Below, piece by piece: positions 43,813 through 63,118 of a DNA stretch of 64,000 nt. The notes beneath the pieces were generated by a model. The model ran no database searches. It was not told the DNA's origin and worked only from the letters and a program-made list of their open reading frames with translations. The DNA is from Microbacterium testaceum StLB037. GTDB taxonomy: Bacteria > Actinomycetota > Actinomycetes > Actinomycetales > Microbacteriaceae. A program made the translations under genes and the position numbers. Within the stretch, counting starts at the first letter, position 1. Each line of letters begins with the position of its first letter. The stretch covers positions 186,001 through 250,000 of the forward strand of contig NC_015125.1 of the NCBI RefSeq assembly GCF_000202635.1, written 5' to 3'.

Positions 43813-43855
43813 GTCCAGATGACACGATATGAACCTGTGAACCCTTGACCCCCAG
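43813..43855 (-). pseudogene. tRNA-Pro(GGG) 3' fragment A (att-like site)
   Basis: 43 bases running from the anticodon loop to the discriminator base, on the minus strand. It shares 37 of 43 positions with fragment B at 47106-47148. T-arm and acceptor pairing are partly broken here, and no 5' half precedes it. This is the usual footprint left by integration of an element into a tRNA 3' end, later decayed. Confidence 0.75.
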
Positions 43856-44116: not shown

Positions 44117-44956
44117 TCAGCGAATCGGCTGACGTGACGCTGTGTCTAGTCTGCGGTGCACGTAAGAGAAGAGGCTAAACGCGTCATAGAAGTCCGGCAG
44201 GAGTTCAGTGTTGTCGACGCGATTGGAGTGGGCTCGGGGGTTTCGATAGTGCCCGTGAATCCCGAGGAGCAAATTCTTAAACCCCCGATGTTCGCTGATG
44301 TCGGAATCGTTCTCGTATCGGTTCATGTAGAGCAAGGGTTCGTCCTGACGGGTCCCGAAGACCCCGTTGTACAGGGCATCACCATCACCAGCGAGGCCAG
44401 TGATCTGACGAACTCGAGTCGGGATGCTCTTCGAGGCTTCGGAGATTGCGTGAAAGAGCGAGCGAGTCACAAACTCCTCTGCACAGTAACGGAAGAGTTC
44501 GTCGTGGGTTCCGCGACGACGAAGCTCCGCGTGGAGTGTTCCTGCTAGCTCTGCCGCTTCAGATAGCGTGCTGGCTCTTGTACCGCGAGCGAGTTGACCT
44601 CGGTCATTGATCCTGTATCCGTAGTGGACGAGAAACTCGGAAAGCTGGTCACTCAACTGTGCGAATCGATTGGGGTCGCGCATATATCTGGCTGGGGACA
44701 TGGCCATGTTAATGAACACGACGACGGAGTTACCGAGGCCCTGCTTGTACTGCTTGTTGTTGAGCGTGATGTACAGGCTTTCGCGCTTGTTTCGTCCCGC
44801 TTCACGTTGCAAGATCCCCGCCATCGGCAACAAGGCGTCAATCTCCGAGTTACTCAGGCCAGGGTACTCGGTTTGGGCGAGAATGTCTGCAACACCTTTG
44901 ATGAAGTCCATGGGGAACGGTTCGACCCGCTTGGGGCCGGAGAGTGATGTAGCCAT
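44117..44956 (-). CDS. Ymh/TIGR02391-type protein, predicted defence
   Basis: 279 residues. The C-terminal domain shows the TIGR02391/Hypoth_Ymh pattern: SLFHAISEASKSIPTRVRQITGLAGDGDALYNGVF, then PLLYMNRYENDSDISEHRGFKNLLLGIHGHYRNPRAH. Such domains are found in phage-associated and abortive-infection loci, and their NPRAH segment resembles HEPN-like motifs. The N-terminal half is helical and unassigned. ATG 44956 follows AGAGGA; an earlier in-frame start at 44989 lacks a ribosome site. GC is markedly lower than in the chromosome. Confidence 0.78.
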   Translation of the reverse strand: MATSLSGPKRVEPFPMDFIKGVADILAQTEYPGLSNSEIDALLPMAGILQREAGRNKRESLYITLNNKQYKQGLGNSVVVFINMAMSPARYMRDPNRFAQLSDQLSEFLVHYGYRINDRGQLARGTRASTLSEAAELAGTLHAELRRRGTHDELFRYCAEEFVTRSLFHAISEASKSIPTRVRQITGLAGDGDALYNGVFGTRQDEPLLYMNRYENDSDISEHRGFKNLLLGIHGHYRNPRAHSNRVDNTELLPDFYDAFSLFSYVHRRLDTASRQPIR

Positions 44957-45300
44957 GTGTCCAAGTATCCTCTTCTGCGAGGCAGACACTGGGTACTGTC
45001 ATTGCCTCGCTGCTCGGACGCGGGCGATCCCGCGGAGGCGACGTGCGAACTGGAACGCACCAAGTGAGGCAAACTATCCCAAACTCCGATAGGGCGCTTC
45101 CCAATCCATCTCGCCGAGTTCATCGGTGTCGATGGTTAGCACAGAGCGAAATGAGGTGCATTGTGGCTTCATTACTGAAGGAGGGGAAAATAGCCGGTCT
45201 ACGCCCGCGCCAGGGAATGAAGCATCAGTTTTTGGCCGAGTGACTGTGCGAGGACATCCGGACGAAGGCGGCGCAGGAAGTTTCTCGGCGAGTGCCCGTA
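44957..45300. other. Intergenic region, no gene seen
   Basis: About 340 bases of lower-GC sequence between two minus-strand genes. Short open frames on both strands lack ribosome sites and recognisable content. It presumably holds the promoter of the Ymh-type gene. Confidence 0.5.
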
Positions 45301-47105: not shown

Positions 47106-47148
47106 GTCGGGATGACAGGATTTGAACCTGCGACCCCTTGACCCCCAG
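47106..47148 (-). pseudogene. tRNA-Pro(GGG) 3' fragment B (att-like site)
   Basis: Minus-strand sequence from anticodon loop CTGGGGG through a well-paired T-arm (GCAGG-TTCAAAT-CCTGT) to the acceptor end CATCCCGA. Anticodon GGG with G37 identifies tRNA-Pro. The 5' half (acceptor, D-arm, anticodon 5' strand) is absent from the adjoining sequence, so this is an att remnant and not a working tRNA. Confidence 0.8.
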
Positions 47149-47285: not shown

Positions 47286-47963
47286 CTATGCTCGTCCGAG
47301 CCGAAGGACGCTTGCGAAGTCTCGTTCCCAGATGTAGACGTCTCCCACTTGGTCCTCGAACTCAAGCTGAATCGCGAACACTTGTAGAGCGTTGGAGCCT
47401 CTCTCGCTCAGCGTGAACATTTCCAGACCGTCGGCAATGCCCATGGATGGCTTCATGGCGAAGCCAGGAGAGATCTCATGCAGGTCGAAATCCACGCCCG
47501 GCCTCAGGCCGAGCATCGCCAGATTGTCTCGCGCCTCAGGCACGGGCCACCACAACCAACCCTCGACTGCCGCTGGCACAATGCCGTACCGGACGCTACG
47601 AACCCGAGCAACACCTGCACCAACATTCTGCAGGATGAGGGTCCATGCTCTCCGACGTCGCACACGGATCCAGCCCTTGCTGTGCCCCGAGATGTACGGC
47701 CTCGAAACTCGCGCGTACTGCGTGCGAGCAAGTAGCAGCGTGGTCATCGCCGCGACAAGTGTCGCCGCTGGCGCCACTCCCAGGATCGTTGGCGCGAACG
47801 GGAGGCTAGATACAGTGGCCGCGTCGAGGTTGGAACGAACGATCTCCCAGACAAGCACCAACGATGCAATGCTCAAAAGGAGAAGAGGGATCACGTAGAA
47901 GCTAGCGCTCCGTCCAATGCGCCGTTGAACCGCGCGGTCGGCTGGAGGCTGAGGACTTCTCAA
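47286..47963 (-). CDS. Two-helix membrane protein in radical-SAM peptide operon
   Basis: 225 residues. Two N-terminal helices (FYVIPLLLLSIASLVLVWEIV and TILGVAPAATLVAAMTTLLLA) are followed by a cytosolic beta-rich domain (WIRVRRRRAWTLILQNVGAGVARVRSVRYGI, ALQVFAIQLEFEDQVGDVYIWERDF). The TTG start at 47963 overlaps the radical SAM stop by four bases, so it is translated with the enzyme. No family recognised. Possible roles are export, immunity or a membrane effector whose action depends on the modified peptide; none is shown by the sequence. Confidence 0.75.
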   Translation of the reverse strand: MRSPQPPADRAVQRRIGRSASFYVIPLLLLSIASLVLVWEIVRSNLDAATVSSLPFAPTILGVAPAATLVAAMTTLLLARTQYARVSRPYISGHSKGWIRVRRRRAWTLILQNVGAGVARVRSVRYGIVPAAVEGWLWWPVPEARDNLAMLGLRPGVDFDLHEISPGFAMKPSMGIADGLEMFTLSERGSNALQVFAIQLEFEDQVGDVYIWERDFASVLRLGRA

Positions 47964-49102
47964 GCACCCGTCCTCGTCAAATCGCGAACTCGCTCGTAGA
48001 GAGGCATCAAAGCAGAGCAGTAGACGGACGGATTATCCAAACCGTGATCTGTCGAGTATCTGTGAGCGATATGCCCTCCACCGCAGAGGCTGAGGTTGTC
48101 GCATCCCGCACACCTGGAGTGAAGAAATGATCCCTTGTCCATCATCGCCCGCATCCCCGGCAACTCGGCAATCTCGGAAATCTCCCTCTGTCCAGCGACC
48201 CGGTTCGTTGAGTTGACCTCGTACGAAGCGGTTCGTAGCACGTCATGCAGTACGTACCTTCCGTCCGTCTCGACGATCAGCGTTCCCGCGGAACGTAGCC
48301 CCAGGCTATCTGAGCCCCAGACGCCACCAAGCGCGAGCTTGAAGACCGTTTGAAACCATCGAATTTGAAACGTACGTGGAGTGGAAACGTAGAGGTCAAA
48401 GAGTTCGAGGAGCCAGGGGCCATAGGTCGCAGCAAGTTCAGCTTCATCCGCAGAATCCCAGTTCTCATCGGGGAGCAAGACATCGACGAACGGAAAGCCA
48501 AGCGACTCGATCCGCTCAAGTGCAGCCTTCGGCTCGACGGACGGATCAATAACGAAAAGGCCACCCTGCGGTTCGCTGTTTGCTGAAGCGTCGCGAATCG
48601 CAGAGATCCCCAATCTTACCCGCGCCATCGATCCCCGACCCATCTTGTCTACGCGATGGGAGTCGTGCGAGGCATCTGAGAGGTCAGCGCTCACACCAAA
48701 CCCGACCTGGGCATCAAGTAGGGCGCTCAGCGTCTCTTTCCTCAAGATGGTTGCGTTTGTCTGTATGGACAGATTCGCGGTCACACCCACGGATGTCAGC
48801 TCGGAATCGATGAGTTTAAGGAGCTCCCGGTAGGCGGATGCGGGAAACAACATCGGCTCGCCGCCGTGGAAGACAATAGACACGCTTCCCAACCCGACCT
48901 CGTCCGCGTACTGGGCTATGTCCTGCAACACGGCCCGGGCGGTCTCCACGCTCATGAACACAGGCAAGTCGCGCCAACTCTGATCGGGGCCGGTGTACAT
49001 ATAGCAATATGTGCACGCCAAATTGCACCTGCTGGCGACCTTGAAGATGTAGGTCGTGATCGCGGTCCGAGCCTCATGCCCAGACGCCGCAGGATTACTC
49101 AC
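47960..49102 (-). CDS. Radical SAM/SPASM peptide maturase, FxsB-like
   Basis: 380 residues. The radical SAM cluster motif CxxxCxxC is Cys26, Cys30 and Cys33 in RCNLACTYCYMY, followed by TGPDQSWRDLP, the signature stretch of FxsB-type enzymes. SAM-binding VFHGGEPML follows. The C-terminal SPASM domain supplies further iron-sulphur cysteines (RCAGCDNLSLCGGG and VYCSA). FxsB relatives link an aromatic ring to the beta-carbon two residues on, making three-residue cyclophanes in ribosomal peptides. GTG 49102 overlaps the stop of a 47-residue peptide gene by eight bases, which makes that peptide the obvious substrate. Confidence 0.9.
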   Translation of the reverse strand: MSNPAASGHEARTAITTYIFKVASRCNLACTYCYMYTGPDQSWRDLPVFMSVETARAVLQDIAQYADEVGLGSVSIVFHGGEPMLFPASAYRELLKLIDSELTSVGVTANLSIQTNATILRKETLSALLDAQVGFGVSADLSDASHDSHRVDKMGRGSMARVRLGISAIRDASANSEPQGGLFVIDPSVEPKAALERIESLGFPFVDVLLPDENWDSADEAELAATYGPWLLELFDLYVSTPRTFQIRWFQTVFKLALGGVWGSDSLGLRSAGTLIVETDGRYVLHDVLRTASYEVNSTNRVAGQREISEIAELPGMRAMMDKGSFLHSRCAGCDNLSLCGGGHIAHRYSTDHGLDNPSVYCSALMPLYERVRDLTRTGA

Positions 49103-49238
49103 TAGTCGCGGGCATGACTCCGCTGCGTGTCCACGACGACCACTGCGTCTGGATTGTCATCCCGCTCTCCGCAGCACTTGCCTCGGCGACGGCCCGCGAC
49201 GCGGCTTCCTCTAGATCTGACTTCAACTTGTCGGACAT
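49095..49238 (-). CDS. Predicted RiPP precursor peptide
   Basis: 47 residues. A charged helical leader (MSDKLKSDLEEAASRAVAEA) precedes a serine-rich hinge and the core TIQTQWSSWTRSGVMPATSE. The core has two aromatic-X-X units, W33-S-S35 and W36-T-R38, the type of site cyclised by cyclophane-forming radical SAM enzymes. It does not end in the FxSxx motif of the known FxsA peptides. ATG 49238 has a GGGGGG stretch six bases before it. Its stop overlaps the maturase start. The length, overlap and composition support a real gene despite its size. Confidence 0.75.
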   Translation of the reverse strand: MSDKLKSDLEEAASRAVAEASAAESGMTIQTQWSSWTRSGVMPATSE

Positions 49239-49367
49239 CTGAACCCCCCCAGTGCGCTCTTGCACGATGAAACTATGTTCGCGCGTCCGCGACGACAGTG
49301 CAAGGACGATGGCCGATGGGAGCAGGGGCCCCATGAAGGCGTCGGGCGCGATACGGGCCGCGGTGCT

Positions 49368-50708
49368 CTACGACGTTCTTTTCTCATAGGGGATCGCTTG
49401 GCGATCCTCAGCCAGCCGTCGAGTTAGTTCCGTTTGGTCCGCACCAAGCTCCAGCGCGACCCATGCGCGGACGACCAGAACGGCTTGGCGCCAGACATTC
49501 AAGATGTCGACGATGTCGGGGGCGGCGCGATTGGCGTGCTTGACGCCGTTGTATACGCGCACGGTGTCGTCCGCCCACGTCGGACCGTCGAACGGCAGAC
49601 ACTCACCGACGTTGTCAAGGATTCGATTGAGCCGCTCGTTGAGGGGTTGCTGGCCGGCCTTTCTCTCTGTCATGCCGTCTCGTACGGCGAGGAGATACCC
49701 GAGCGCTTCAAGTCCAGGGCCGGTGTGGGCCAATCTCGTGAATGGTGTCGCGCCGGGAAGGTCGATACTGCTGATGACCGGGTCGAGGGCACGCGCGAAG
49801 TCGTCGCGTAGGGCCAGCCACGACGCGACGCCCGACTCGCCAAGTTCGGAGTATGGGATGAGATGCTGCCTGTAGGTGCGAGGTGGCTTCTTTCGTTCGT
49901 CATTCGGCACAACCACCTCGCGCCATTGAATCCCGTGGGTCCGGCCGTCCAAGGTTCGCATGGGATCGTCGTTGCGGGTCGCTCTGACAGGAACGCAGGA
50001 CTCCTCCCACCAGCGCGAGAGGACAAGGAGATCTCGCACACCCTTGTGCACTTGCAGGTGGGCGTCCCACTGCTGAGCAGAGGCGCTCTCGGTGGTGCAG
50101 CGCACGAGGTCGTTCAGCACCACGCGGTCCTCGCCCTGTTCGATCTTGATTCCACGGCCCGGTCTGAACTGCAGTGTGAGACCGTGCACGGTTCCCACCG
50201 TGATCATGGGATTCTCGACCGAGTCGATCGATACTTGCACTCGGCTCTCGCGCAGGTCGATGTCCTGAGTTCGCGCCCACGATGAGATGCCGAGCCACTC
50301 ACGCAGGCCTGAGATCTCGGACTGAAGGCCGTGCGGTTCGTCGAAGGCAACGATCTCTTCAACGCCCATGATCGCCGCACGAGCCCACAGGCGACCTGTG
50401 CCAGGGCCCCATATGTTCGCGTGGAAGCCTCGCGGGTAGCATCCGACGAGCAGCACGGAGCCGTGCGAGTCGTGGAAGAGGACGCGCTTCGGCGCGTCTT
50501 TCGGTTCTGGCGGCTGTGCGGGCGGGAGTTCCAGACCCGTCTTCCCGACGAACCACCGAGCGTATGGAGATTCCCGCGTTGACCAGCCCACCTCGATGCT
50601 GATGCCTTCGTCGGAGCGTTCCAGGGCGACTCTCGTCGTCGGCGTATCTGGGTCGTTATCGAAGAAATCACCCGTCCGCCGGGTACCAGTGAGGAGTTCG
50701 TTCGGCAT
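49368..50708 (-). CDS. ApeA-like HEPN defence protein
   Basis: 446 residues. The N-terminal half is beta-rich (RVALERSDEGISIEVGW, KRVLFHDSHGSVLLVG) as in ApeA N-terminal domains. The C-terminal half is helical and contains RVYNGVKHANR, a HEPN-type R-x6-H motif typical of ApeA-like ribonuclease domains. ApeA is a known anti-phage protein thought to act by abortive infection. ATG 50708 follows AAGGGA; a TTG codon precedes it. Located just upstream of the peptide operon on the same strand, with 130 bases between. Confidence 0.75.
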   Translation of the reverse strand: MPNELLTGTRRTGDFFDNDPDTPTTRVALERSDEGISIEVGWSTRESPYARWFVGKTGLELPPAQPPEPKDAPKRVLFHDSHGSVLLVGCYPRGFHANIWGPGTGRLWARAAIMGVEEIVAFDEPHGLQSEISGLREWLGISSWARTQDIDLRESRVQVSIDSVENPMITVGTVHGLTLQFRPGRGIKIEQGEDRVVLNDLVRCTTESASAQQWDAHLQVHKGVRDLLVLSRWWEESCVPVRATRNDDPMRTLDGRTHGIQWREVVVPNDERKKPPRTYRQHLIPYSELGESGVASWLALRDDFARALDPVISSIDLPGATPFTRLAHTGPGLEALGYLLAVRDGMTERKAGQQPLNERLNRILDNVGECLPFDGPTWADDTVRVYNGVKHANRAAPDIVDILNVWRQAVLVVRAWVALELGADQTELTRRLAEDRQAIPYEKRTS

Positions 50709-51315
50709 CAACTATCCCTTCAATGGAGCCGGCCGATGCCGGAGTCTCACGGTAACGCTCCCCCGGTGCTTCCAGCCCGAGTCTTGCGGATCTCGGACAC
50801 AGACGCGCCTTCGGCCTCTCCGCATGAGTAGCGGCCACGGTAGCCGCGATGGGTGTCTCTTTGATGAAGCCCACTAGCGCCTCACGGGGAACGTACTCGC
50901 GAGTTCCGATGCTCGTCCACTTGATGTCACCCTTGTCAGCCAGACGCACGGGATGAGACGAGAACGTTGATTTTCCGCGGTCTCTGAGCTGAGCCGAGGC
51001 AGATTTCACGCCCTGGAACGCATCAAATCCATGGTTCTGGTCCCCTTTTCGTCCCCCTTGCGGAGTCATTCCACGAACACCTCTCGGAGCGGCTTGACAC
51101 CGTAGCGGTACTCAAGCCCCAAGCGAACGTCGCATTTTCCGTCGTTCGCAAGGTCCGAAGTGAGCGGTCAAGCGTGTGGAGCGGCGCTCGACGCGCGGCT
51201 GACGACCTCCTCCGCGACACTGCAAGGCTGGCCAGTGCTTCCCGCTCCGGTCTGCTCGCTCACAAGTCGGCGAAGACCTGCCCGGGCGTCACAGCCGATC
51301 GAAGCAGGCGTGCGA
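50709..51315. other. Intergenic region with possible excisionase-like remnant
   Basis: About 600 bases. A minus-strand frame (50668-51069) contains DIKWTSIGTREYVPREALVGFIKE, similar to the end of excisionase-type winged helices, but it overlaps the ApeA-like start and lacks the N-terminal helix-turn-helix, so I treat it as debris. A CTGGTCCCC repeat at 51037-51045 may mark another insertion junction. No intact gene seen. Confidence 0.4.
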
Positions 51316-52932
51316 ATGAACCGAGATGACTACCGGTCAGACCGCACAGATGCTCCCGCGAGTGTCAGCGGGAATGTCGGTCCCCCGCGGGACACTTTGC
51401 CTATGGATCTCTCACCAGAGAAGCCGGCCGTCGAGCGAAGCGCCGTCGTGCTTCTATCGCGACTCGGCGAGCGCTGGAGCCAAGCTGAGTACGCACAGTT
51501 GGCTGAGGAGCTGCGCTTGGGCCTGACCGTTTCCGAGATCGCCGAGGCCCATGGCAGACCGGCGGGTGCTATCTCCGCTGCATGCAACCGCCTGCTTCCA
51601 GCGGAGGAGCAGCCACGAAGTCGCCGACACGCCCCCGCCGCGCTGACTCGCTACCTCGCCGAACATCCCGATGAGCGTCTCGTGATTCAACGCACGGCAT
51701 CCGGTAGGTCTCGTCGAGGCTCTGACGATGCAATCCTGCTCGTGCGACCGTCAGCCGGTCTTCTGCCCGTTACTGAGGCTCTACTTGAACCTGGAGATGC
51801 CGCTGCTCTTCTCTCCGAAGCCCTCGCGGGCCTTGAGGGGAAGCCACGCGAGCAGAAGATTCTTCGGATGCGCGTCGGCTTCGAAGGAGCACCCCGCACG
51901 CTCGCGGAGATAGCGAGAGAGTTCGACCTCAGTCGTGAACGCATCCGCCAGATCGAGTCCAGAGCGCGGAACATTCTAGTGCATCAGGCGCGTACACCTG
52001 GCAGCCCAGGGTCAGTGCTCGCCTCGCTCCTGCATCTGCCCAGCGCGGACTTGGTCGATGAGGCATTCGCTGGACGCATCGCCACAATAGCCATGTCTGA
52101 GTTCGAAGCTCCGTCCCGCGTGACGATCCCGCTCCTGCTGTCTGCTGCTGGGGTCACGTCGCCGATTGCCCGTCAGCTCGCCGTTCTCGCCCGCGCTACG
52201 GAAGACCGTTTTCAGGAGCTCGAGAGGGAACGCCGCCGAGTAGAAGCCGCTGAGCGACGCCTCGCTGCTGTGGTCCAACGAGCTGATTCGGCGGTCGCCC
52301 GTTGGAATGAGCACGCGTCCTGGCCAGTCACCCTGAACCCTCCGCCCGTGCGTGGGACGCTCCGCGCGTTGCGGCTCGGCGGATCCGGTGAGGCCGCGGG
52401 CAGCTTCCATTTCGACAAGCTACGCCGCGAGGTGTTCTACGAATCGTCCCTTGAACTCACCGCGCTCAGTTTCCTGGAGAACAGCACCGACATCGCCTGG
52501 TACCAGGAGCAGCCGCTCGCCATTCCGTACACGTGGAGAGGGCGTCCGCACGTCTACTATCCCGACGTCCTCGCCGCGACTCGCACAGGTCAGTGCTTGA
52601 TCATCGAGGTCAAACCGCTGGTGAACATGCCGATCGCTCTGAACCTCGCTAAAGCCGCCGCCGCGCGGGTCTACGCGCACCGGCACGGCTGGGGGTGGGT
52701 GACCGTCGACGGCGCGCTCACTTCGCGCGACCTTGACACATACGTCATCCCCACCCACAAGGTTCGCGCCATCAACGCTCGTCTTGAAACTCACGGCCAT
52801 CTCGATTGGGGCGACATCCTCGAGTTGCGGGTGAAGCACCAGGTCCGTTCGCGGGACATTGCTGCGTTTGTCGCCCAGACCGGCGCCCGACTCACGCTCG
52901 AGTCGTACTACCGCATCACCGGGTCGCGATGA
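51316..52932 (+). CDS. Sigma-70 region 4 / TnsA-like nuclease fusion protein
   Basis: 538 residues. A SANT/Myb-like helix-turn-helix lies at about 50-95 (RWSQAEYAQLAEELRLGLTVSEIAEAHGRPAGAISAACNRL). A sigma-70 region 4 domain lies at about 175-222 (RTLAEIAREFDLSRERIRQIESRARNIL). A coiled coil follows (about 295-325), then a TnsA-like PD-(D/E)xK nuclease (about 370-470) with Glu in FYESSLE, Asp in YYPDV and ExK in IIEVKP (E431, K433). All predicted catalytic residues are present. The start is uncertain among 51310, 51316 and 51403. It may be a restriction- or transposition-like defence effector with promoter-like DNA recognition. Confidence 0.82.
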   Translation: MNRDDYRSDRTDAPASVSGNVGPPRDTLPMDLSPEKPAVERSAVVLLSRLGERWSQAEYAQLAEELRLGLTVSEIAEAHGRPAGAISAACNRLLPAEEQPRSRRHAPAALTRYLAEHPDERLVIQRTASGRSRRGSDDAILLVRPSAGLLPVTEALLEPGDAAALLSEALAGLEGKPREQKILRMRVGFEGAPRTLAEIAREFDLSRERIRQIESRARNILVHQARTPGSPGSVLASLLHLPSADLVDEAFAGRIATIAMSEFEAPSRVTIPLLLSAAGVTSPIARQLAVLARATEDRFQELERERRRVEAAERRLAAVVQRADSAVARWNEHASWPVTLNPPPVRGTLRALRLGGSGEAAGSFHFDKLRREVFYESSLELTALSFLENSTDIAWYQEQPLAIPYTWRGRPHVYYPDVLAATRTGQCLIIEVKPLVNMPIALNLAKAAAARVYAHRHGWGWVTVDGALTSRDLDTYVIPTHKVRAINARLETHGHLDWGDILELRVKHQVRSRDIAAFVAQTGARLTLESYYRITGSR

Positions 52933-53792: not shown

Positions 53793-53824
53793 ATACTTCA
53801 TTAGTATCCATTGGGTGATACAAT
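53793..53824 (+). promoter_or_regulatory. AbiE promoter/operator
   Basis: Overlapping inverted repeats ATACT-TCATT-AGTAT (53793-53807) and GTATC (53804-53808) with GATAC (53817-53821), ending in a TACAAT -10 hexamer (53819-53824) seven bases before the AbiEi ATG. This suggests a leaderless transcript and an autorepressor site; AbiEi antitoxins are known to bind inverted repeats in their promoters. Confidence 0.6.
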
Positions 53825-53831
53825 CGCAGTC

Positions 53832-54866
53832 ATGGGAGTGGCAAGCGTCGCGGCGAGGGTGTCGGAACTGGCGGCCCGGCAGTGGGGCCTGCTCACTACC
53901 TCTCAGGCCGAAGCCGAAGGCATCACTCGACTGCAGCTCGCTCGCCTCGCGGATGCAGGCGTGATCGAACGCCTGGACCGTGGAATCTACGCAGCGTCGG
54001 CGGCGGTCGATGAGCGCACGCCGCTTCGCGCCGCGTGGCTGTCGCTCGAGCCTTCAAAGCTGGCCGAGGAGCGACTTGCTGACCCCGCGTCATCCGGCGT
54101 GCTGTCGCATACGTCTGCAGCTACCCTCCACCGTGTGGGTGACCTCCTCGACGATGTGCCAGAGATCACGATGCCGGACAGGAAGCAGAGTCGTCGGGGC
54201 ATTCGCCTTCACCGCAGTGCCCTAGAGGCTGGCGATGTGACGATCGTCGAAGGCCTGCCGGCGACGACCCCCGCGCGCACGGTCGCGGACCTTCTTCGTG
54301 ACGGGCATGATCCCTCCCATGTTGCGGAGATCGCAGGCGACGCGCTCCGACGGGATCTCGCCTCACGGCAAGACATGGCGGCGGCACTGGATCCCCTTGC
54401 GCGCAGGAACGGACAACCGCACGGTGCCGCGCTGCTGGAGCACCTGCTTGACCTGGTCGGGCTAAGCAGCGCGGCACTTGTCACGCAACTCACAGCGAGC
54501 GACCTAGGAAAAGCGCTTGTCAATGCAGGGCACCTGGCGGCGATCCGAAGCATCATCGAGGCCGTCTCGAAGATCGATGTCCCAGAGAACCTTCTGGGAT
54601 CGAAGGACTCCGAGGCGATGGCGGCGTTCACGAAGAACGTCGTACTCCCCCATCTCCCCGCCGGCGTGCTTCCCAAGATCGACATGTCCGCGATCGTCAA
54701 GGCCGTGAGCCCGTCCATCCCCATCGACACCACCGCGTTCCGAGAAGCTCTGCGTGCAGGCATTCCTACGTGGCTGCCCGAAGTCATCCGAACCCTGCCT
54801 GCTGATTCGTGGCCCCCGTCCGCGCTGACGACTATATCTGCCACGCGAGAAGGGGCATCAGAGTGA
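53832..54866 (+). CDS. AbiEi-type antitoxin/repressor
   Basis: 344 residues. The N-terminal winged helix-turn-helix (RQWGLLTTSQAEAEGITRLQLARLADAGVIERLDRGIYA) and the following AbiEi C-terminal domain (LSHTSAATLHRVGDLLDDVPEITMP, TPARTVADLL) fit the type IV antitoxin family. A long helical extension follows. It neutralises the toxin without a direct complex and represses its own operon. ATG 53832 lies seven bases after a TACAAT hexamer. Its stop overlaps the toxin start as GTGA. Confidence 0.88.
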   Translation: MGVASVAARVSELAARQWGLLTTSQAEAEGITRLQLARLADAGVIERLDRGIYAASAAVDERTPLRAAWLSLEPSKLAEERLADPASSGVLSHTSAATLHRVGDLLDDVPEITMPDRKQSRRGIRLHRSALEAGDVTIVEGLPATTPARTVADLLRDGHDPSHVAEIAGDALRRDLASRQDMAAALDPLARRNGQPHGAALLEHLLDLVGLSSAALVTQLTASDLGKALVNAGHLAAIRSIIEAVSKIDVPENLLGSKDSEAMAAFTKNVVLPHLPAGVLPKIDMSAIVKAVSPSIPIDTTAFREALRAGIPTWLPEVIRTLPADSWPPSALTTISATREGASE

Positions 54867-55777
54867 CAGACGAGATCCCCTACAAAGACGGCACCGCTCT
54901 CTGGGCCGCAGTGAAGACGCGAGCGAAGACCGAGGCGGCGGTCTCTGGGCTGCCAGCTGGCGCGCTGCTCAGGCGGTTCGTCGTGGACCGGTTCCTGGCG
55001 CGGGTGTTCGCTCTTCCCGGGAACAAGTGGGTTCTGAAGGGCGGCAACGCTGTCCTCACGCGCGTGCACGATGCGCGTACGACGAAAGACATCGATCTGC
55101 TCGCCGAGCTCGCTGACCTCGATGCGGCCGTAGAACGGCTCCGTGAAGCGATCCAGATCGATCTCGGCGATCACTTCCGTTTCGCAATCACCGATACCCG
55201 CGCGGCGTCGGGAGGCACTATGCAACCCGATGTCGATGGATACAAGGTATCAATCGACGCGTACTGCGGGGTCACGCCCCGCCACCGCTTCAGCGTCGAC
55301 ATCGTCACGGGTTCTCTGATGACCACCGAGCCCGATACTCAGACTCGGCCCGGTCTGGTGCCCGCTATCCCGGCAACGAGCGTGCGCCTCTACCCGGTGG
55401 TCGATCACATCGCCGACAAGCTTTGCGCAACGCAGAGCACCTACGGCACGGCCGGCGACCAGCCGTCGAGCCGCGTCCGCGACCTCGTCGACCTCGTCGT
55501 CTTCGCGCGCACGCAACGCATCGACGGAACCGAGCTCGCCGATGCCATTGCCGCCGAGTGTGCACACCGGGGCCTTCCCGGCGTGCCGGTCTTCTCACCG
55601 CCTGAAGCGTGGCGACGCCTTTACCCGACGCAGGCCAGGGCCGTGCCCGCATGCGGCGACGTTCTCACCTTCGACGGCGCCGTCGACCTCACCCGCGCAC
55701 TTCTCGACCCCGCGCTCGACAGAACCGCCACCGGTCGGCAGTGGTCACCAGACGCCCTTACATGGGCACGCGCCTGA
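54863..55777 (+). CDS. AbiEii-type nucleotidyltransferase toxin
   Basis: 304 residues with the AbiEii/AbiGii nucleotidyltransferase core: KWVLKGGNAVLTRVHDARTTKDIDLLAEL contains the GG..R.T.DiD catalytic motif, and the later PVVDHIADKLCATQSTYG plus RVRDLVDLVVFA are family hallmarks. Such toxins transfer nucleotides to tRNA or other targets and cause abortive infection or bacteriostasis. GTG 54863 overlaps the antitoxin stop. Length agrees with known members, so it appears intact. Confidence 0.9.
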   Translation: MTDEIPYKDGTALWAAVKTRAKTEAAVSGLPAGALLRRFVVDRFLARVFALPGNKWVLKGGNAVLTRVHDARTTKDIDLLAELADLDAAVERLREAIQIDLGDHFRFAITDTRAASGGTMQPDVDGYKVSIDAYCGVTPRHRFSVDIVTGSLMTTEPDTQTRPGLVPAIPATSVRLYPVVDHIADKLCATQSTYGTAGDQPSSRVRDLVDLVVFARTQRIDGTELADAIAAECAHRGLPGVPVFSPPEAWRRLYPTQARAVPACGDVLTFDGAVDLTRALLDPALDRTATGRQWSPDALTWARA

Positions 55778-55960
55778 GGACCTTCGCCTGGCCAGCGAGC
55801 TTCACTTGTACGACGATTTCCCACTCTTCTTCCCTGCGATGCACCGAGAGCCCGCTCAGTGACGCTCGGCGACATGCATGATCAAGACGGCGCTCATCCC
55901 CTTTACCGCCTTTCAGCATGGTCATTTCCGCACCGCGGTGTCGGCGGTGGAGGCGATACT

Positions 55961-56749
55961 TTGACGGTGAGCAAACGGCGAGCAGATCTCATGGCGCAGA
56001 TCGAACGTGACCTTCTCGATGAGAAGCCGCTCGACACTCTGCTCCGCAAGCTCATCCTGCTCGGCGGGAACGCGGGCTCACCCGAACTCCGCGACTGGGC
56101 GTCGCTGGAGCTGCGCGGCTACGAGCGGGACGCTGAGCTGCCCCCGTACAGGACTGTGCCCGCTCCGCTGCAGATCGACGGCGCCGTCCGCGACGGGATC
56201 GTGCGCCACGAGACCATCGGCGCGATGGACATTCCCGACTTCGCTCGCGATGAGATCAGCGAGCAAGTCCCATTGCGGATGGGCGTGAGCGAGATCCACA
56301 GCATGGTGGACCAGCACCGGAACGACAGAATGGTCCAGCTTCAACCACCGGGTGCTGCTGACCTCGTGACCTACATGAACGGCACCCGGCAGATGAACGG
56401 CCACATCACTGCGCTCTACTGGAGCGTCAGCACCATCGCCCTCGCCGGTGTGCTGGACCAGATTCGCACTCGGTTGGCGGAGCTCATCGCCGAACTGCGC
56501 TCCGCGACCCCACCGGGCCAGAACCTCCCCACCCGGACGCAGGCAGCCAACGCCGTGAGCCTCGTGATCAACGGACGCGGGAACCGAGTGAGCATCGCAC
56601 AGGCCGCGGACGGCAGCACGATCGCTGCCGCCCCGGAAGAAGCCAAGCCGCGCTTCTGGACGGTGGCGAAGATCGTCGGCGCAGCAGTTGTTGGGCTCGC
56701 CACGATCGCGGGAACGGTCATCGCGGCACTCCAGCTGCCGACCTGGTGA
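55961..56749 (+). CDS. AbiTii domain membrane-associated protein
   Basis: 262 residues. The N-terminal 90 residues (MAQIERDLLDEKPLDTLLRKLILLGGNAGSPELRDWASLELRGYERDAELPPYR) match the AbiTii family seen in abortive-infection loci. A helical middle follows, then a C-terminal membrane helix (IVGAAVVGLATIAGTVIAAL). TTG 55961 is seven bases after GGAGG; GTG 55967 is a second option but too far from it. It starts a three-gene plus-strand cluster. The mechanism of AbiTii proteins is not established. Confidence 0.8.
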   Translation: MTVSKRRADLMAQIERDLLDEKPLDTLLRKLILLGGNAGSPELRDWASLELRGYERDAELPPYRTVPAPLQIDGAVRDGIVRHETIGAMDIPDFARDEISEQVPLRMGVSEIHSMVDQHRNDRMVQLQPPGAADLVTYMNGTRQMNGHITALYWSVSTIALAGVLDQIRTRLAELIAELRSATPPGQNLPTRTQAANAVSLVINGRGNRVSIAQAADGSTIAAAPEEAKPRFWTVAKIVGAAVVGLATIAGTVIAALQLPTW

Positions 56750-58139: not shown

Positions 58140-59382
58140 GTGGATCTCACCCTCAACGACACGCAACTCGCCGTACTGAGATGGGTCGCCGCGGGCGCCG
58201 ACCTTGAGAACCCTCCGACACCGACGTTCAAGACATCCGCGGTCGCCCTGCGCAGCCGCGGACTGATCGAACTAGACAAGCGCAAAGGCCGGTAGAACGC
58301 CCAGCTCGCGGACAAAGGGAGCTTTTACCTCGAGCACGGACATCACCCGGACACGCAGAATCGAGCGGAGCGGACCACTCCACCCAAACCGAGCAAGCCC
58401 TCGAAGGCATCACCACCGAAGTCACCCCCGGCTATCGACGAGCCTGCAGAACCGGCAGCGCCTCCGGCGTCTGACGCCCCGAAGAACGACACAGCGACCG
58501 GCATCCCGATCCCGTCCCAGATCCGGCACCCGCACGCCGCCATCCGTGAGCTGGTCGATCACAAGTCGCGTGTCGCGGTCCCCGCGGACACCCTACGCCG
58601 CTCCCACCTCATCCTGCACGCGCTCGTTCAGGAGGCGCTGAGGCGTGGCTGGATAGTCACGCCGGTGCTGTCCAGCATGCGAGCCGACCCTTGGACGGGC
58701 ACTCGCACACGGGTCTGGCCGAGCGAGAACCTGTTCAGCATCGACGCCGGAAGCGTACGGGTCGCTGGTCATCGAGGACACCGTGGCCACGCGCATTGAG
58801 GACAAGCTGGAGCGCGCCTTTGCCCGTATCCAGTCCATGACAGATGCGGCGATCGCACGGGCCGAAGCCCAACGGCAGCACGCGATCGCGGAAGCGGAAC
58901 GGAGGCGACGTGCGGAAGCGCTACGGCCGCGCGCCGTGCACTACGGCAATTGGGTGGCTGCCCTCGACGAACTCCACGCCGCCTTCACCAAGCACCGAGA
59001 AGTGAGCGCACTCATCGAGTCGCTTCGCGGCCTCGCGCCCGACACAGAGGACGCGGAGCGGCGCACGCAGTTCGATCGCTACGTGCAATGGGCGGCGCAG
59101 CACCTGAAGGAGTCCGACCCGTTCCTCGCCTTCACGCTTCCGGACGGCGACACCCCCGACCTATCATTCCCGCAGTGGCAGCGATGGCGGGCACAGAACC
59201 AGCACCCGTTCACGATCGGGCGCTTCGGATGGGTCCCCTGGGTCGCGTCTCTCGCTCCCCGTTCCAAATCCCTGATGCGGAGTGGAGGCGGGTCGATCCA
59301 CCAACGTCAGTCGGACAAGGCGTCAAGGACCTCTGCGACGCGGGTGAGGTTCTTGTTCTTTTCGATGTACTCAGAGTACTGA
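58140..59382 (+). pseudogene. Winged-helix actinobacterial hypothetical gene broken by nonsense and frameshift
   Basis: The frame from GTG 58140 reads MDLTLNDTQLAVLRWVAAG and continues through a TAG at 58293-58295 where this family has Trp (KGR-stop-NAQLADKGSFYLEHG). It then runs to FSIDAG near 58750, after which the sense continues in another frame (EAYGSLVIEDTVATRIEDKLERAF); one missing G near 58749 restores it. The second half (ARIQSMTDAAIARAEAQRQHAI and onward) is a long coiled-coil-like region. The end overlaps the convergent ATPase gene by 76 bases. Role of intact relatives unknown. Confidence 0.75.
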
Positions 59383-61454
59383 GCCCGAGCTTTGTGGATG
59401 AGTTCCTGGTATCGGAAGACACGCCCGTTGAGCTCCGCGACACGCTCTCGGCTGTAGTCGTCCGGGTTCTTCGACGGGGGCGACTTCTTGGCGCCGGGCT
59501 TCTGCCCCACAACGAAGATCACCTCGTACGGCTCATCTGAGCGTCCGGTCTCTTCGAGAATCTGGGTCAACGCTCGTATGTAGGTCAGTCCCTGGTCGTA
59601 GAGGACGTCAATGTCCGGCTTCACGCCGGGACGTTTGAGCTCGATGATGACGTGTCGATTCTGGACGTTGCAGTAGCGCAGGTCAATGCGCTTCAGCGCG
59701 TCTTCCTCGGGTCGCTCGGCACCGAAGGTCTCCGCAAGCTCGAAGACGCGCTCCTCCATGGAGACGTCTTGCGAGATACGGTCCCAGGCAGGATCGAGAA
59801 GCCAAAGGTTGGCGTGCAGCTTCTCTTGGAGCACTTTCTCCAGGACGTTCTCCGCCACGTCGTCCTTGAAGCTCTGGATGGTCTCGATCCGCGCTCTGAT
59901 GAGATCGAGGTACATCGCGGATTCGTAGCTATCCAGCGTTGCGAGGACAGTCAGGATGTCGTCGGTCTGCATCGTCGAGAGCTGGTTCAGCCTTTCGACG
60001 TCCTCTCTGAGCCCGATCCGCTCGAACGCGATGATTCCCGACTGAAACAGTCGACGTCGGTCTTTCGCCGCGTCTGTGCTCTCCGGGATCGACAAAGATT
60101 CGATGGTCCCCATGAGTTTCGTGGCCGGGTCTTGCTGGTACTTCGGCAACGACTCGATCCAGTCCTTGATGGGCTTGTTGTTGGCGAGGACCTCCTTCGC
60201 CTTCCTCTTCGGTCGCCACTCCGACCATTGGTCCGAAGCTCTCAAGAGTGCAGCGCGAAGGAAGTCTCGAAGGGCGACGACCCGTGGGTCATCTTCCATG
60301 AGGCGTTGACGGTCGCTGGTCGCGATATCGTCCTGGTCGTCGGTGTCCAGGAAGTCTGCCCGGATCTGCCCGGTCGTGTAGCTGACGAAGAGTCGGCTGA
60401 AGTCGAGGCGCTCAAGGATACTTTCCTGGATCGGACGTCCTCGTGAGAGCACCATGATGTTCTTGAGCGATCCCGCCTCATCATCTTCGACGAGCTGATC
60501 GGGTCGCGCGGTAGTCCCGAACCAGCCGGACACGAGCCAAGTGCTGTCGCCAGGGACGGACGCGGGCAGCACCGTTCGAACAGCATCGGCAGCGAGGCTC
60601 TCAGCCGGGATCCGCTCAGCGCCGAACTCCCAGAGGTATTCGAGCTTCTTCAACTCGATTCGGTCGTCGAAGGAGATCGGCGCGCCGTTCAAGGTGACGT
60701 AGAAGAGGCCCGCGAGCGCATTCGATGCAGTCGTATCGGCGGGGTCAGCTTCAATCATCCGACGAAGATCACTGATCTGCGACTTGACGGCGTCGAGCGG
60801 GGTCTCGCCGTCAGCGGCCTTGGGTGCGACGAGCGTAAGGACGTCGAATCGCCGTGCCACTCGTTTCCGAAGCGCATTAAGTGCGACGTCAATCCGGCGG
60901 CGACGGAGATTGGTGAGCCGGATGATCGTGCCGTGCGCCCCAAGCGCGGGCAGGACGTCGATCGGTTCAGGATGATAGGCCTTATCATCCTCGATGCGCT
61001 TCTTGAGCTCGTCGACCTCGATGCGAAAGGCGTTGCGTTCTCCATTTCGCGCTGAGTGGACCTCGACGGTGTCGGCGATCGAGAAGACAGACAGCTTCCC
61101 GATGCCCTTCCGGCCCATGAACGGCCGCTTGTAGCCGTCACTGAGGCCACCTTCCGTGGTGCGCTTCGAGTAGCCGACCGTGAGGAACTTCCGCTTCAGC
61201 TCCTCCCGCGTCATCCCTCGACCGTCGTCGCTGATCTCGACGAACGCGTCATCGCCACCCGCATTCCAGTTAATCTCAACGAGATTGGCGTCGGCATCCC
61301 ACGCGTTCGCGACCAGCTCGGATACCACTGCCGCTGCATTGCTGTAGAGGTTGATGCCGAGCGCCTCCAGCACCGACATGCTGATCTTCATCTCATAGGT
61401 CTCGTCCGGAGCACCTTCTTCCGCGCTCGATACCTCGACTGCGTTGTCGCTCAT
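59307..61454 (-). CDS. GHKL ATPase of MutL/MORC-like restriction system
   Basis: 715 residues. The N-terminal GHKL ATPase has Glu46/Asn50 in ELVANAWDAD, DDGRGM (76-81) and GRKGIGKLSVFSIA (114 onward), followed by an S5-like domain. A long helical region leads to a C-terminal part with IDLRYCNVQNRHVIIELKRPG (ELK at about 605-607), a likely PD-(D/E)xK nuclease motif. Such MutL/MORC-like ATPases accompany Dcm-type methyltransferases and Vsr nucleases in restriction-modification operons. It lies 42 bases after the methyltransferase gene on the same strand. Confidence 0.88.
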   Translation of the reverse strand: MSDNAVEVSSAEEGAPDETYEMKISMSVLEALGINLYSNAAAVVSELVANAWDADANLVEINWNAGGDDAFVEISDDGRGMTREELKRKFLTVGYSKRTTEGGLSDGYKRPFMGRKGIGKLSVFSIADTVEVHSARNGERNAFRIEVDELKKRIEDDKAYHPEPIDVLPALGAHGTIIRLTNLRRRRIDVALNALRKRVARRFDVLTLVAPKAADGETPLDAVKSQISDLRRMIEADPADTTASNALAGLFYVTLNGAPISFDDRIELKKLEYLWEFGAERIPAESLAADAVRTVLPASVPGDSTWLVSGWFGTTARPDQLVEDDEAGSLKNIMVLSRGRPIQESILERLDFSRLFVSYTTGQIRADFLDTDDQDDIATSDRQRLMEDDPRVVALRDFLRAALLRASDQWSEWRPKRKAKEVLANNKPIKDWIESLPKYQQDPATKLMGTIESLSIPESTDAAKDRRRLFQSGIIAFERIGLREDVERLNQLSTMQTDDILTVLATLDSYESAMYLDLIRARIETIQSFKDDVAENVLEKVLQEKLHANLWLLDPAWDRISQDVSMEERVFELAETFGAERPEEDALKRIDLRYCNVQNRHVIIELKRPGVKPDIDVLYDQGLTYIRALTQILEETGRSDEPYEVIFVVGQKPGAKKSPPSKNPDDYSRERVAELNGRVFRYQELIHKARAQYSEYIEKNKNLTRVAEVLDALSD

Positions 61455-61496
61455 CTGGCCCCCATGTTCGTGAGTAACGAAGAAACGAATCAGCTT

Positions 61497-62579
61497 CTAC
61501 TGGTGCGCTCGAGACGCCTCATCAGTTGCTTGCTGAGCTTCGAGCATCTTCAGGAAAGTCTCGCCAACCGCTCGACCGAACGCCGGCGGAACAGCGTTTC
61601 CGATGAGACGCCCCACCGCCTGCATCGAAGGCTTCTCCTTGCCCTTCACAAAGCGGTAGCTCCTTGGGAAGCCTTGAAGCATGGCCGCTTCGCGAAGGGT
61701 GAGGCTCCGGTCCTGTTCTGGATGGCCAAAGCGTCCGGTCCCGAAGTTGAAGGATTGGGTGGTGATGGTCGGCGAAGGCGCGTCCCAGGTCATGCGTCCA
61801 TAGAACGCCTGGAAGCTCGCGCCGCTGGACCTGGTGTGGCAGGGAGCGAGAAGCTCCACAGGCCAGTCTCGCCACGTCCCGCCAGGTGCGGAGGCCTTCA
61901 TGCGTCGCAGGTTCAATGGCGTCAGTCGGCGGGCCGTGTGGAGCAAGTCCTTCGGGTCAGACTCACCGTGCTCAAGCTTCGGAAGTCTCGATATGGTCTG
62001 CTTGACCGTCTTGAACTTGCTCTTGTCCTTGTTCCCCTTCGGCAAGGAGACGTTGCCTTTGCGCGATGCCATGAGGACAAGGCGGCGACGCTCCTGCGGG
62101 AGGCCGAACTCCGGGCCGTAGAGAGTGCCGAAGTCGACCTCATAGTCAAGCTCTTCAAGCTTTGCGACGAAGTTCTCGAACACAGGCATCTTGCCGAGAC
62201 GAGTGACGTTCTCCATCGTCACGAACTCAGGGAGCGACTCTTCCACTAGTCGCGCGAAGTGCGATAGAAGATCCCAGTTCTCTTCATCTCGGGTATCGGC
62301 TCCGCGACGATGACTTGAGAACGGTTGGCAGGGTGCGCACCCGGCCAGGAGACGAAGCTTGCCCTCTGGCCACAAGGCCTGAAGGTCAACGCCTTTGACG
62401 TCGCCAACGTCCTTCAGGATGAACTGGGCCTTCAAGTTCTGTTCATACGGATACTGACAGGCAGGGTCGAGGTCTATCCCCGCGACGACGTCGATCCCAG
62501 CCTGTTTGAGGCCGAGCGACAAGCCTCCGGCACCGCAGAACAGGTCGATGGCAGCGATCGTAGGCGACGGAGAACTCAC
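61497..62579 (-). CDS. DNA (cytosine-5) methyltransferase
   Basis: 360 residues with the ordered C5-methylase motifs: AIDLFCGAGGLSLGLKQAG (I, SAM binding), the catalytic Cys84 in APCQPFS (IV), Glu123 in TMENVTRLG (VI), and LTLREAAMLQGFPRSYRF plus AVGRLIGNAVPPAFGRAV (IX and X). A target-recognition region lies between motifs VIII and IX. Complete length. It should protect host sites for the neighbouring ATPase/nuclease, with Vsr repairing deamination. Recognition sequence not deducible. Confidence 0.95.
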   Translation of the reverse strand: MSSPSPTIAAIDLFCGAGGLSLGLKQAGIDVVAGIDLDPACQYPYEQNLKAQFILKDVGDVKGVDLQALWPEGKLRLLAGCAPCQPFSSHRRGADTRDEENWDLLSHFARLVEESLPEFVTMENVTRLGKMPVFENFVAKLEELDYEVDFGTLYGPEFGLPQERRRLVLMASRKGNVSLPKGNKDKSKFKTVKQTISRLPKLEHGESDPKDLLHTARRLTPLNLRRMKASAPGGTWRDWPVELLAPCHTRSSGASFQAFYGRMTWDAPSPTITTQSFNFGTGRFGHPEQDRSLTLREAAMLQGFPRSYRFVKGKEKPSMQAVGRLIGNAVPPAFGRAVGETFLKMLEAQQATDEASRAHQ

Positions 62580-62674
62580 GGATCATACGCTATCTGCTCG
62601 ACGGCACGACGTCGACGGCGACACGTCCCTGTTGGGCGTGTCGGGCGGGGCGTGCTCGCTAGCCTAAACGAGCA

Positions 62675-63118
62675 TCAGGGAGCAGCCCGGTCGTTGGGCT
62701 GGATGCGACTTGCGTTCACAGCTTGGATGATCTGGTCAGCGGCATGAGACGGCGTCTCGTGCTCCCAGAACCGCAGGACGAGCCAGCCGCGTGCCTCAAG
62801 GTGAGTTGTCGTCTCCACGTCGCGAACCCGATTCCGTTCGATCTTCGCGCTCCAGTAGTCGAGATTCGTGGCGGGCATGCTGAAGTGCTGCGGGCAGCCG
62901 TGCCAGTAGCAGCCGTCAATGAACACGGCGATCCGCACACGAGTGAACAGCATGTCTGCGGTGCGGCGAAGGTCCTTCTCTGGGCGCGCGTTCACTCGAT
63001 AGCGCAGGCCGGCTGCGTGCACGAGCCGTCGCACGGCAAGCTCGGCCTTTGTGTCGCGCCCTCGATTGCCTTGCATGGTCTTGCGCGCGGCGTCGCTGGA
63101 TGCCCACGGCGTGTACAT
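62675..63118 (-). CDS. vsr: Very short patch repair endonuclease
   Basis: 147 residues matching Vsr: RDTKAELAVRRLVHAAGLRYRVN, the catalytic Asp in RRTADMLF, FIDGCYWHGCP with the conserved His and zinc cysteines, and YWSAKIERNRVRD followed by RFWEHE. Vsr nicks T:G mismatches created by deamination of 5-methylcytosine, so its place ahead of a C5-methyltransferase gene is expected. Nine bases separate it from the upstream HEPN-like gene. Confidence 0.95.
   Translation of the reverse strand: MYTPWASSDAARKTMQGNRGRDTKAELAVRRLVHAAGLRYRVNARPEKDLRRTADMLFTRVRIAVFIDGCYWHGCPQHFSMPATNLDYWSAKIERNRVRDVETTTHLEARGWLVLRFWEHETPSHAADQIIQAVNASRIQPNDRAAP

Follow-up and report, generated by a model that had tools for sequence, protein, structure and literature searches.

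Several enzymes that close three-residue cyclophanes have been assigned a linkage. The sections of PMC11002830 drawn on here report Phe-Ser for MscB, Trp-Arg for XncB, and both Tyr-Arg and His-Arg for YhhB, and Trp-x-Arg is a triceptide unit reported there. In addition, genes for FxSxx peptides, a metallopeptidase and radical SAM/SPASM enzymes have been tied to conflict systems in which the peptide is predicted to be a toxin or a signal (PMC7159879); the section of that source on FxSxx conflict systems names no membrane partner. The locus described here lies in a 64,000-nucleotide stretch of the Microbacterium testaceum StLB037 genome (the window). It is reasonably likely to be a three-gene triceptide-type (Fxs-like) cassette in which a crosslinked peptide and a membrane protein work together within the cell.

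The cassette is encoded on the minus strand in the order peptide, enzyme, membrane protein, with each gene overlapping the next. The first gene (49095–49238) encodes a candidate precursor peptide of 47 residues with an acidic/Ala-rich leader and a core (QWSSWTRSGVMPATSE). The second (47960–49102, GTG start) encodes a 380-residue FxsB/YhhB-like radical SAM/SPASM enzyme, and the third (47286–47963, TTG start) a two-helix membrane protein of 225 residues with a predicted C-terminal Ig-like β-sandwich. The peptide stop and the enzyme start share 8 nt (GTGAGTAA); between the enzyme stop and the start of the membrane gene the overlap is 4 nt (TTGA). The GTG at 49102 is the sole ATG, GTG or TTG of the enzyme open frame upstream of CxxxCxxC. 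A G-rich stretch (GGGGGGG, 49244–49250, minus strand), 5 nt before the peptide ATG, may serve as a ribosome-binding site. The promoter scan gave no promoter-like site and nothing above shuffled sequence, and the single terminator-like site lies inside the enzyme gene and is within chance when compared to shuffles. Given their homologues, the enzyme and the membrane protein are judged to exceed what chance ORFs would give.

The cysteines of the radical SAM cluster form a CxxxCxxC motif (C26, C30 and C33; 49004–49027, minus strand), identified from the sequence and alignment, and the SPASM cysteines C331, C334, C340 (CGGGH) and C362 (48017–48112, minus strand) are invariant in 16 related sequences. 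The seven cysteines of the enzyme domain are these three plus four; the enzymes of loci L163, L177 and L007 have the same seven and one or two more. Since four SPASM cysteines suffice, one auxiliary cluster is possible. Pfam identifies Radical_SAM, and the best NCBIfam model is YhhB (NF041707, 297.5 bits, under its cut-off of 445), with FxsB (TIGR04269) at 282 bits, under its cut-off of 370. The three overlapping minus-strand genes, the complete CxxxCxxC and SPASM cysteines and the FxsB-like enzyme proposed in the earlier note are all upheld, by the ORF coordinates, the alignment and these two model matches, respectively. The enzyme profile also matches the solved radical SAM domain of ChlB (PDB id: 9gm3, E 2.9e-103). 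PADLOC viperin models match the enzyme too, and this identity was rejected because the YhhB and FxsB models score far higher. As far as its residues tell, the enzyme is an intact, FxsB/YhhB-like radical SAM/SPASM protein of the three-residue-cyclophane type. Both hallmarks of a triceptide pathway are found side by side: a SPASM radical SAM enzyme with CxxxCxxC and auxiliary-cluster cysteines, and an adjacent precursor with an aromatic-x-x core, here WSS and WTR in the overlapping candidate ORF.

Close relatives of the enzyme are scarce. The protein search reported 401 proteins, and among the best 120 of these the nearest relatives share 69, 60, 58, 60, 58, 56, 55, 48 and 46% identity. Their sources are jgi, ena and lgn, and since most of their contigs are short they are probably metagenomic; the contig of P0003 measures 1.86 Mb. 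The 46% relative is from Micromonospora sp. NPDC127501. In a FastTree tree of 254 enzymes, the window enzyme, P0002–P0011 and P0016 make up a 12-member clade (support 100), and the nodes deeper than this clade are weak (support 25 and 32). At E ≤ 1e-40 and with the own genome counted, an FxsB-like enzyme turns up in 2 of the 295 genus genomes (30% identity in the second one), in 1 of 398 genomes from the family and in 5 of 396 from the order. In the class sample, relatives occur in 79 of 394 genomes and, own gene aside, share at most 36% identity (E ≤ 1e-40). A scan of genome contigs gave 156 confirmed enzyme loci, and identity is at most 40% among the 80 of 156 listed. The Micromonospora relative was sought in two genera: none of 40 genomes of genus g132 matches at E ≤ 1e-62, and 23 of 160 genomes of genus g156 match at up to 37% identity (E ≤ 1e-58). 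None of the 88 viral contig stretches that fit a pattern codes for a relative. Phage records contain five distant enzyme matches (at most 31.5% identity), of which the annotated one is a sulfatase maturase.

The C-terminal part of the peptide reads TQWSSWTRSGVMPATSE and ends ...VMPATSE. Its core, WSSWTR (residues 33–38; 49125–49142, minus strand), is made up of two adjacent aromatic-x-x units, W33–S35 and W36–R38. That this is a cyclophane-type core, as the earlier note had it, gains support from the resemblance of WSS and WTR to the Phe-x-Ser and Trp-x-Arg units reported in the above sections of PMC11002830. No NCBIfam model matches the peptide, and the FxSxx-COOH ending of FxsA (TIGR04268) is indeed absent; this absence, which had been taken to set the peptide apart, is less distinctive than it seemed, as W-S-S is an aromatic-x-Ser unit like the F-S-S of FxsA-like and cyanobacterial ORFs. 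The peptide is single-copy in its own genome. Of the 144 window ORFs of 40–60 residues, 44 equal or exceed its codon score of −0.075, so ORF length and codon use are uninformative on whether the peptide is real. The ORF is nonetheless credible from its position, the G-rich ribosome-binding-like stretch and the core motif.

Small ORFs with comparable units are found next to many related enzymes. Upstream ORFs were listed for 17 of 80 enzyme loci, and 12 of the 17 have a candidate precursor, one of them weak. In L002–L006, L008 and L009 (cyanobacteria, 34–38% identity), one or two upstream ORFs of 52–58 residues carry W-x-D-F-S-S-H plus a short tail; such an ORF is found in seven of the eight loci titled photosynthetic cyanobacteria, the exception being L016 (30%). 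Two similar precursor-like ORFs of this kind stand in tandem before one enzyme in L003, L006, L008 and L009. The upstream ORF of L007 (Actinoplanes, 40%) has an FNS unit (AFNSYAF), the candidates of L010 and L015 have HSS, that of L018 has repeated FST and FSS, and L022 has a weak YTS candidate. No clear precursor was seen among the upstream ORFs inspected in the other five loci (L011–L013, L016 and L021). In four plasmid loci, too, a small gene directly precedes that of the enzyme; three of these small genes are annotated YhhA and contain YDR and HHR or HNR units, and the fourth is a hypothetical gene ending APFNSFIAPVK. One YhhA/YhhB pair, in L176, is on a conjugative Novosphingobium plasmid near Piwi- and SMEK-domain genes, a defence-like setting. 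Because of these small upstream ORFs in listed and plasmid loci, enzymes of the FxsB/YhhB-like group often adjoin a precursor, and aromatic-x-Ser and aromatic-x-Arg, which are seen across the precursors of relatives, are recurrent units.

These loci bear on whether the peptide ORF could be spurious, with the enzyme acting on some other or distant substrate or being an island-borne remnant. The protein search returned only the peptide itself, and no homologue was found in the loci searched; both results, the uninformative codon use and the rarity of the enzyme in the genus would suit such an explanation. It is nevertheless very unlikely, because the peptide stop overlaps the only available enzyme start, the core contains two motifs that fit, the enzyme has kept its invariant residues and is intact, and a candidate precursor precedes the enzyme in 12 of 17 relatives (one weak) and in four annotated loci. 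The assignment of the peptide as the enzyme substrate is likely. The enzyme would bond Trp33 to Ser35 and probably also Trp36 to Arg38, in each case at the β-carbon of the latter residue, which would give two adjacent three-residue cyclophanes.

The membrane protein belongs to a small family. AlphaFold2 predicts two membrane helices and an Ig-like sandwich (mean pLDDT of 79.1). No NCBIfam model matches the three family members scanned (window, L162 and L163) and no Pfam model the four scanned (window, L163, L169 and L173), and phage records contain no relative. A Kir-type K+ channel identity was considered and not accepted, as the scores are weak and no filter motif is seen. Besides the protein itself, the protein search found two relatives, P0123 (54%), on a contig of length 2874, and P0124 (42%). 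The latter probably shares one contig with the enzyme relative P0004 (58%), since both come from jgi contigs of length 7993. Two Streptomyces plasmids carry a relative at 32–33% identity, with no FxsB-like enzyme in the 12.6 kb around it on either plasmid. A five-row family profile matches 18 of 159 genomes of one genus (g117, presumably Streptomyces) as well as, with the own genome counted, 4 of 148 genomes of the class. Loci were fetched for 18 of the 19 non-own genomes matched, a 50-residue fragment (G1708) being left out, and 17 of the 18 are from one genus, taken as Streptomyces.

In 9 of the 18 fetched loci an FxsB-like enzyme lies downstream of the membrane gene on the same strand, and in all nine an FxsA-like frame ending F-[SN]-S-x-L lies between the two. 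The membrane gene comes first, followed by the FxsA-like and FxsB-like genes, which is the opposite of the order in the window. The open frames of the membrane gene and the enzyme are 535–695 bases apart in eight of the nine; in L162 the spacing is larger and a 286-residue ORF on the opposite strand lies between the membrane gene and FxsA. Both Fxs-linked enzymes that were scanned pass the FxsB and FxsBH cut-offs. In L163, FxsC follows the FxsB-like enzyme, the FxsA candidate scores 22.4 bits (under the cut-off of 28), and a double-SLATT protein on the opposite strand adjoins the membrane gene. This double-SLATT membrane protein and a small gene with no NCBIfam or Pfam match occupy L163:3083–4639. 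The nine Fxs-linked enzymes form one clade of the 254-enzyme tree, separate from that of the window enzyme, and the nine loci may therefore represent one event.

The remaining nine fetched loci have no FxsB-like enzyme near the membrane gene, and in L158 and L161 the flanks look similar by eye and the nearest 5 kb or so contain no Fxs enzyme. On account of these two loci and the two plasmids, the membrane gene may be independent, and the window protein could be a mere neighbour in a defence island, unrelated to the peptide pathway. We consider this doubtful in view of the 4-nt overlap with the enzyme gene, the probable presence of a relative on the same contig as the 58% enzyme relative, and the position upstream of FxsA/FxsB-like genes, albeit in opposite order, in half of the fetched loci. 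A 23-row family profile matched no further FxsB-like locus among the others searched, with most of these loci having only about 1.5 kb of flank. The partnership proposed in the earlier note gains from the family's recurrence beside Fxs genes, and an association of the membrane protein with the peptide pathway is probable.

The cassette sits in a mobile region. An att-like, exact 43-bp copy (47106–47148) of the 3′ end of tRNA-Pro(GGG) (G000:C1:254304–254378, L135:5305–5379; the match covers G000:C1:254304–254346) marks the left border of a roughly 21-kb island, with the cassette immediately inside it. Left of the cassette, at 43818–43855, there is a degraded second att copy (89% over 38 bp); the two copies suggest tandem island insertions. 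Between them, 46608–47057 matches a phage integrase at 24.1 bits, short of the cut-off of 27.1. The cassette operon has 59% G+C, compared to 71% in window positions 1–40000. The cassette is real, intact, rare and mobile.

Its neighbours bear out the earlier description of a defence-rich island with an ApeA-like gene: the ApeA-like protein (49368–50711) has a Pfam match and no PADLOC match, and the scanned part of the island contains AbiEi/AbiEii, AbiTii, a sub-threshold HEPN match, a C5 cytosine methylase and Vsr. At 53811–56749 the AbiEi/AbiEii pair is followed by the AbiTii-like protein, and a HATPase-domain protein, the C5 methylase and the Vsr endonuclease stand in series at 59307–63118. 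At 51160–52932 a 590-residue protein combines sigma-70 region 4 with a TnsA-like endonuclease domain, a pairing that looks unusual. On the other side of the cassette, 44117–44989 encodes a TIGR02391/Hypoth_ymh protein with a PADLOC PD-Lambda-3_B match (3.5e-54); one of the Streptomyces plasmids (L126) likewise carries an annotated TIGR02391 protein, roughly 1.2 kb away from its membrane-protein relative. Judging by the neighbouring genes, the cassette probably has a role in conflict or defence.

Many RiPPs are antibiotics, and a small membrane protein beside a toxic peptide often confers immunity. The product could accordingly be an antimicrobial triceptide that is secreted, the membrane protein serving as an immunity factor or export helper. 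This is unlikely: none of the window proteins scanned (7 + 9, several without any match) matches a transporter or protease family, and in L163 the membrane family stands beside FxsC (TIR-like) and SLATT, the setting of a conflict system. The positive-inside rule would place both termini of the membrane protein in the cytoplasm, and the Ig-like sandwich would then face the compartment in which the peptide is synthesised. From this topology and the lack of exporter or protease matches among the scanned neighbours, we infer intracellular action. In the reading that we prefer, the 225-residue protein would be a dedicated partner, and the crosslinked peptide an intracellular ligand or brake of it in a conflict or defence system.

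A more speculative reading, which we consider unlikely, is that the two-helix Ig-sandwich protein is an as yet unnamed core part of cyclophane-peptide conflict systems in general; it would bind the crosslinked peptide through its cytoplasmic domain and act as a membrane effector or a channel-like switch. If so, the window would hold a minimal, mobile three-gene version inside an anti-phage island, with the peptide itself as the switch. A mobile cassette this small, with one peptide, one enzyme and one membrane partner, narrows the question of the host role of Fxs- and YhhB-type cyclophane peptides to three genes, and the recurrence of the membrane family beside FxsA/FxsB-like genes provides a concrete candidate for the target of the peptide.

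A literature search, covering few subscription journals, found no description of the peptide or of the two-helix membrane partner. Within the scope of the searches, the claim that the locus is undescribed holds for the peptide sequence and for the enzyme clade; the kind of locus, triceptide/Fxs, is known. The best solved relative of the enzyme profile is the ChlB radical SAM domain (PDB ids: 9gm3, 9gmc), known here from the PDB listing alone. XncB, OscB and MscB compare with the window cassette through their units, the Trp-x-Arg of XncB resembling WTR and the Phe-x-Ser of MscB resembling WSS. They differ in that the crosslinks in the window peptide are predicted, and Trp-x-Ser is absent from the linkages reported in the sections of PMC11002830 drawn on here; two adjacent Trp units would give a bis-cyclophane. 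YhhB is the closest NCBIfam model, and YhhA, like the window peptide, is a short precursor encoded directly before the enzyme. However, the window enzyme scores below the 445-bit cut-off, the three YhhA sequences contain YDR and HHR or HNR whereas the window peptide has WSSWTR, and YhhC has no match among the seven window proteins scanned with NCBIfam. Compared to the FxsA/FxsB systems of actinobacteria, which include FxsC, the window enzyme falls under the FxsB cut-off, belongs to a separate clade and, at 380 residues, lacks the HExxH-derived extension; the precursor has no FxSxx end, the gene order is reversed, and FxsC has no match among the same seven proteins (44.1–50.7 kb). Unlike these features, four others are common to both: a related radical SAM/SPASM enzyme, an adjoining precursor, an aromatic-x-Ser unit and a membrane protein of the same family, which stands upstream of the FxsA/FxsB-like genes in nine of the 18 fetched loci.
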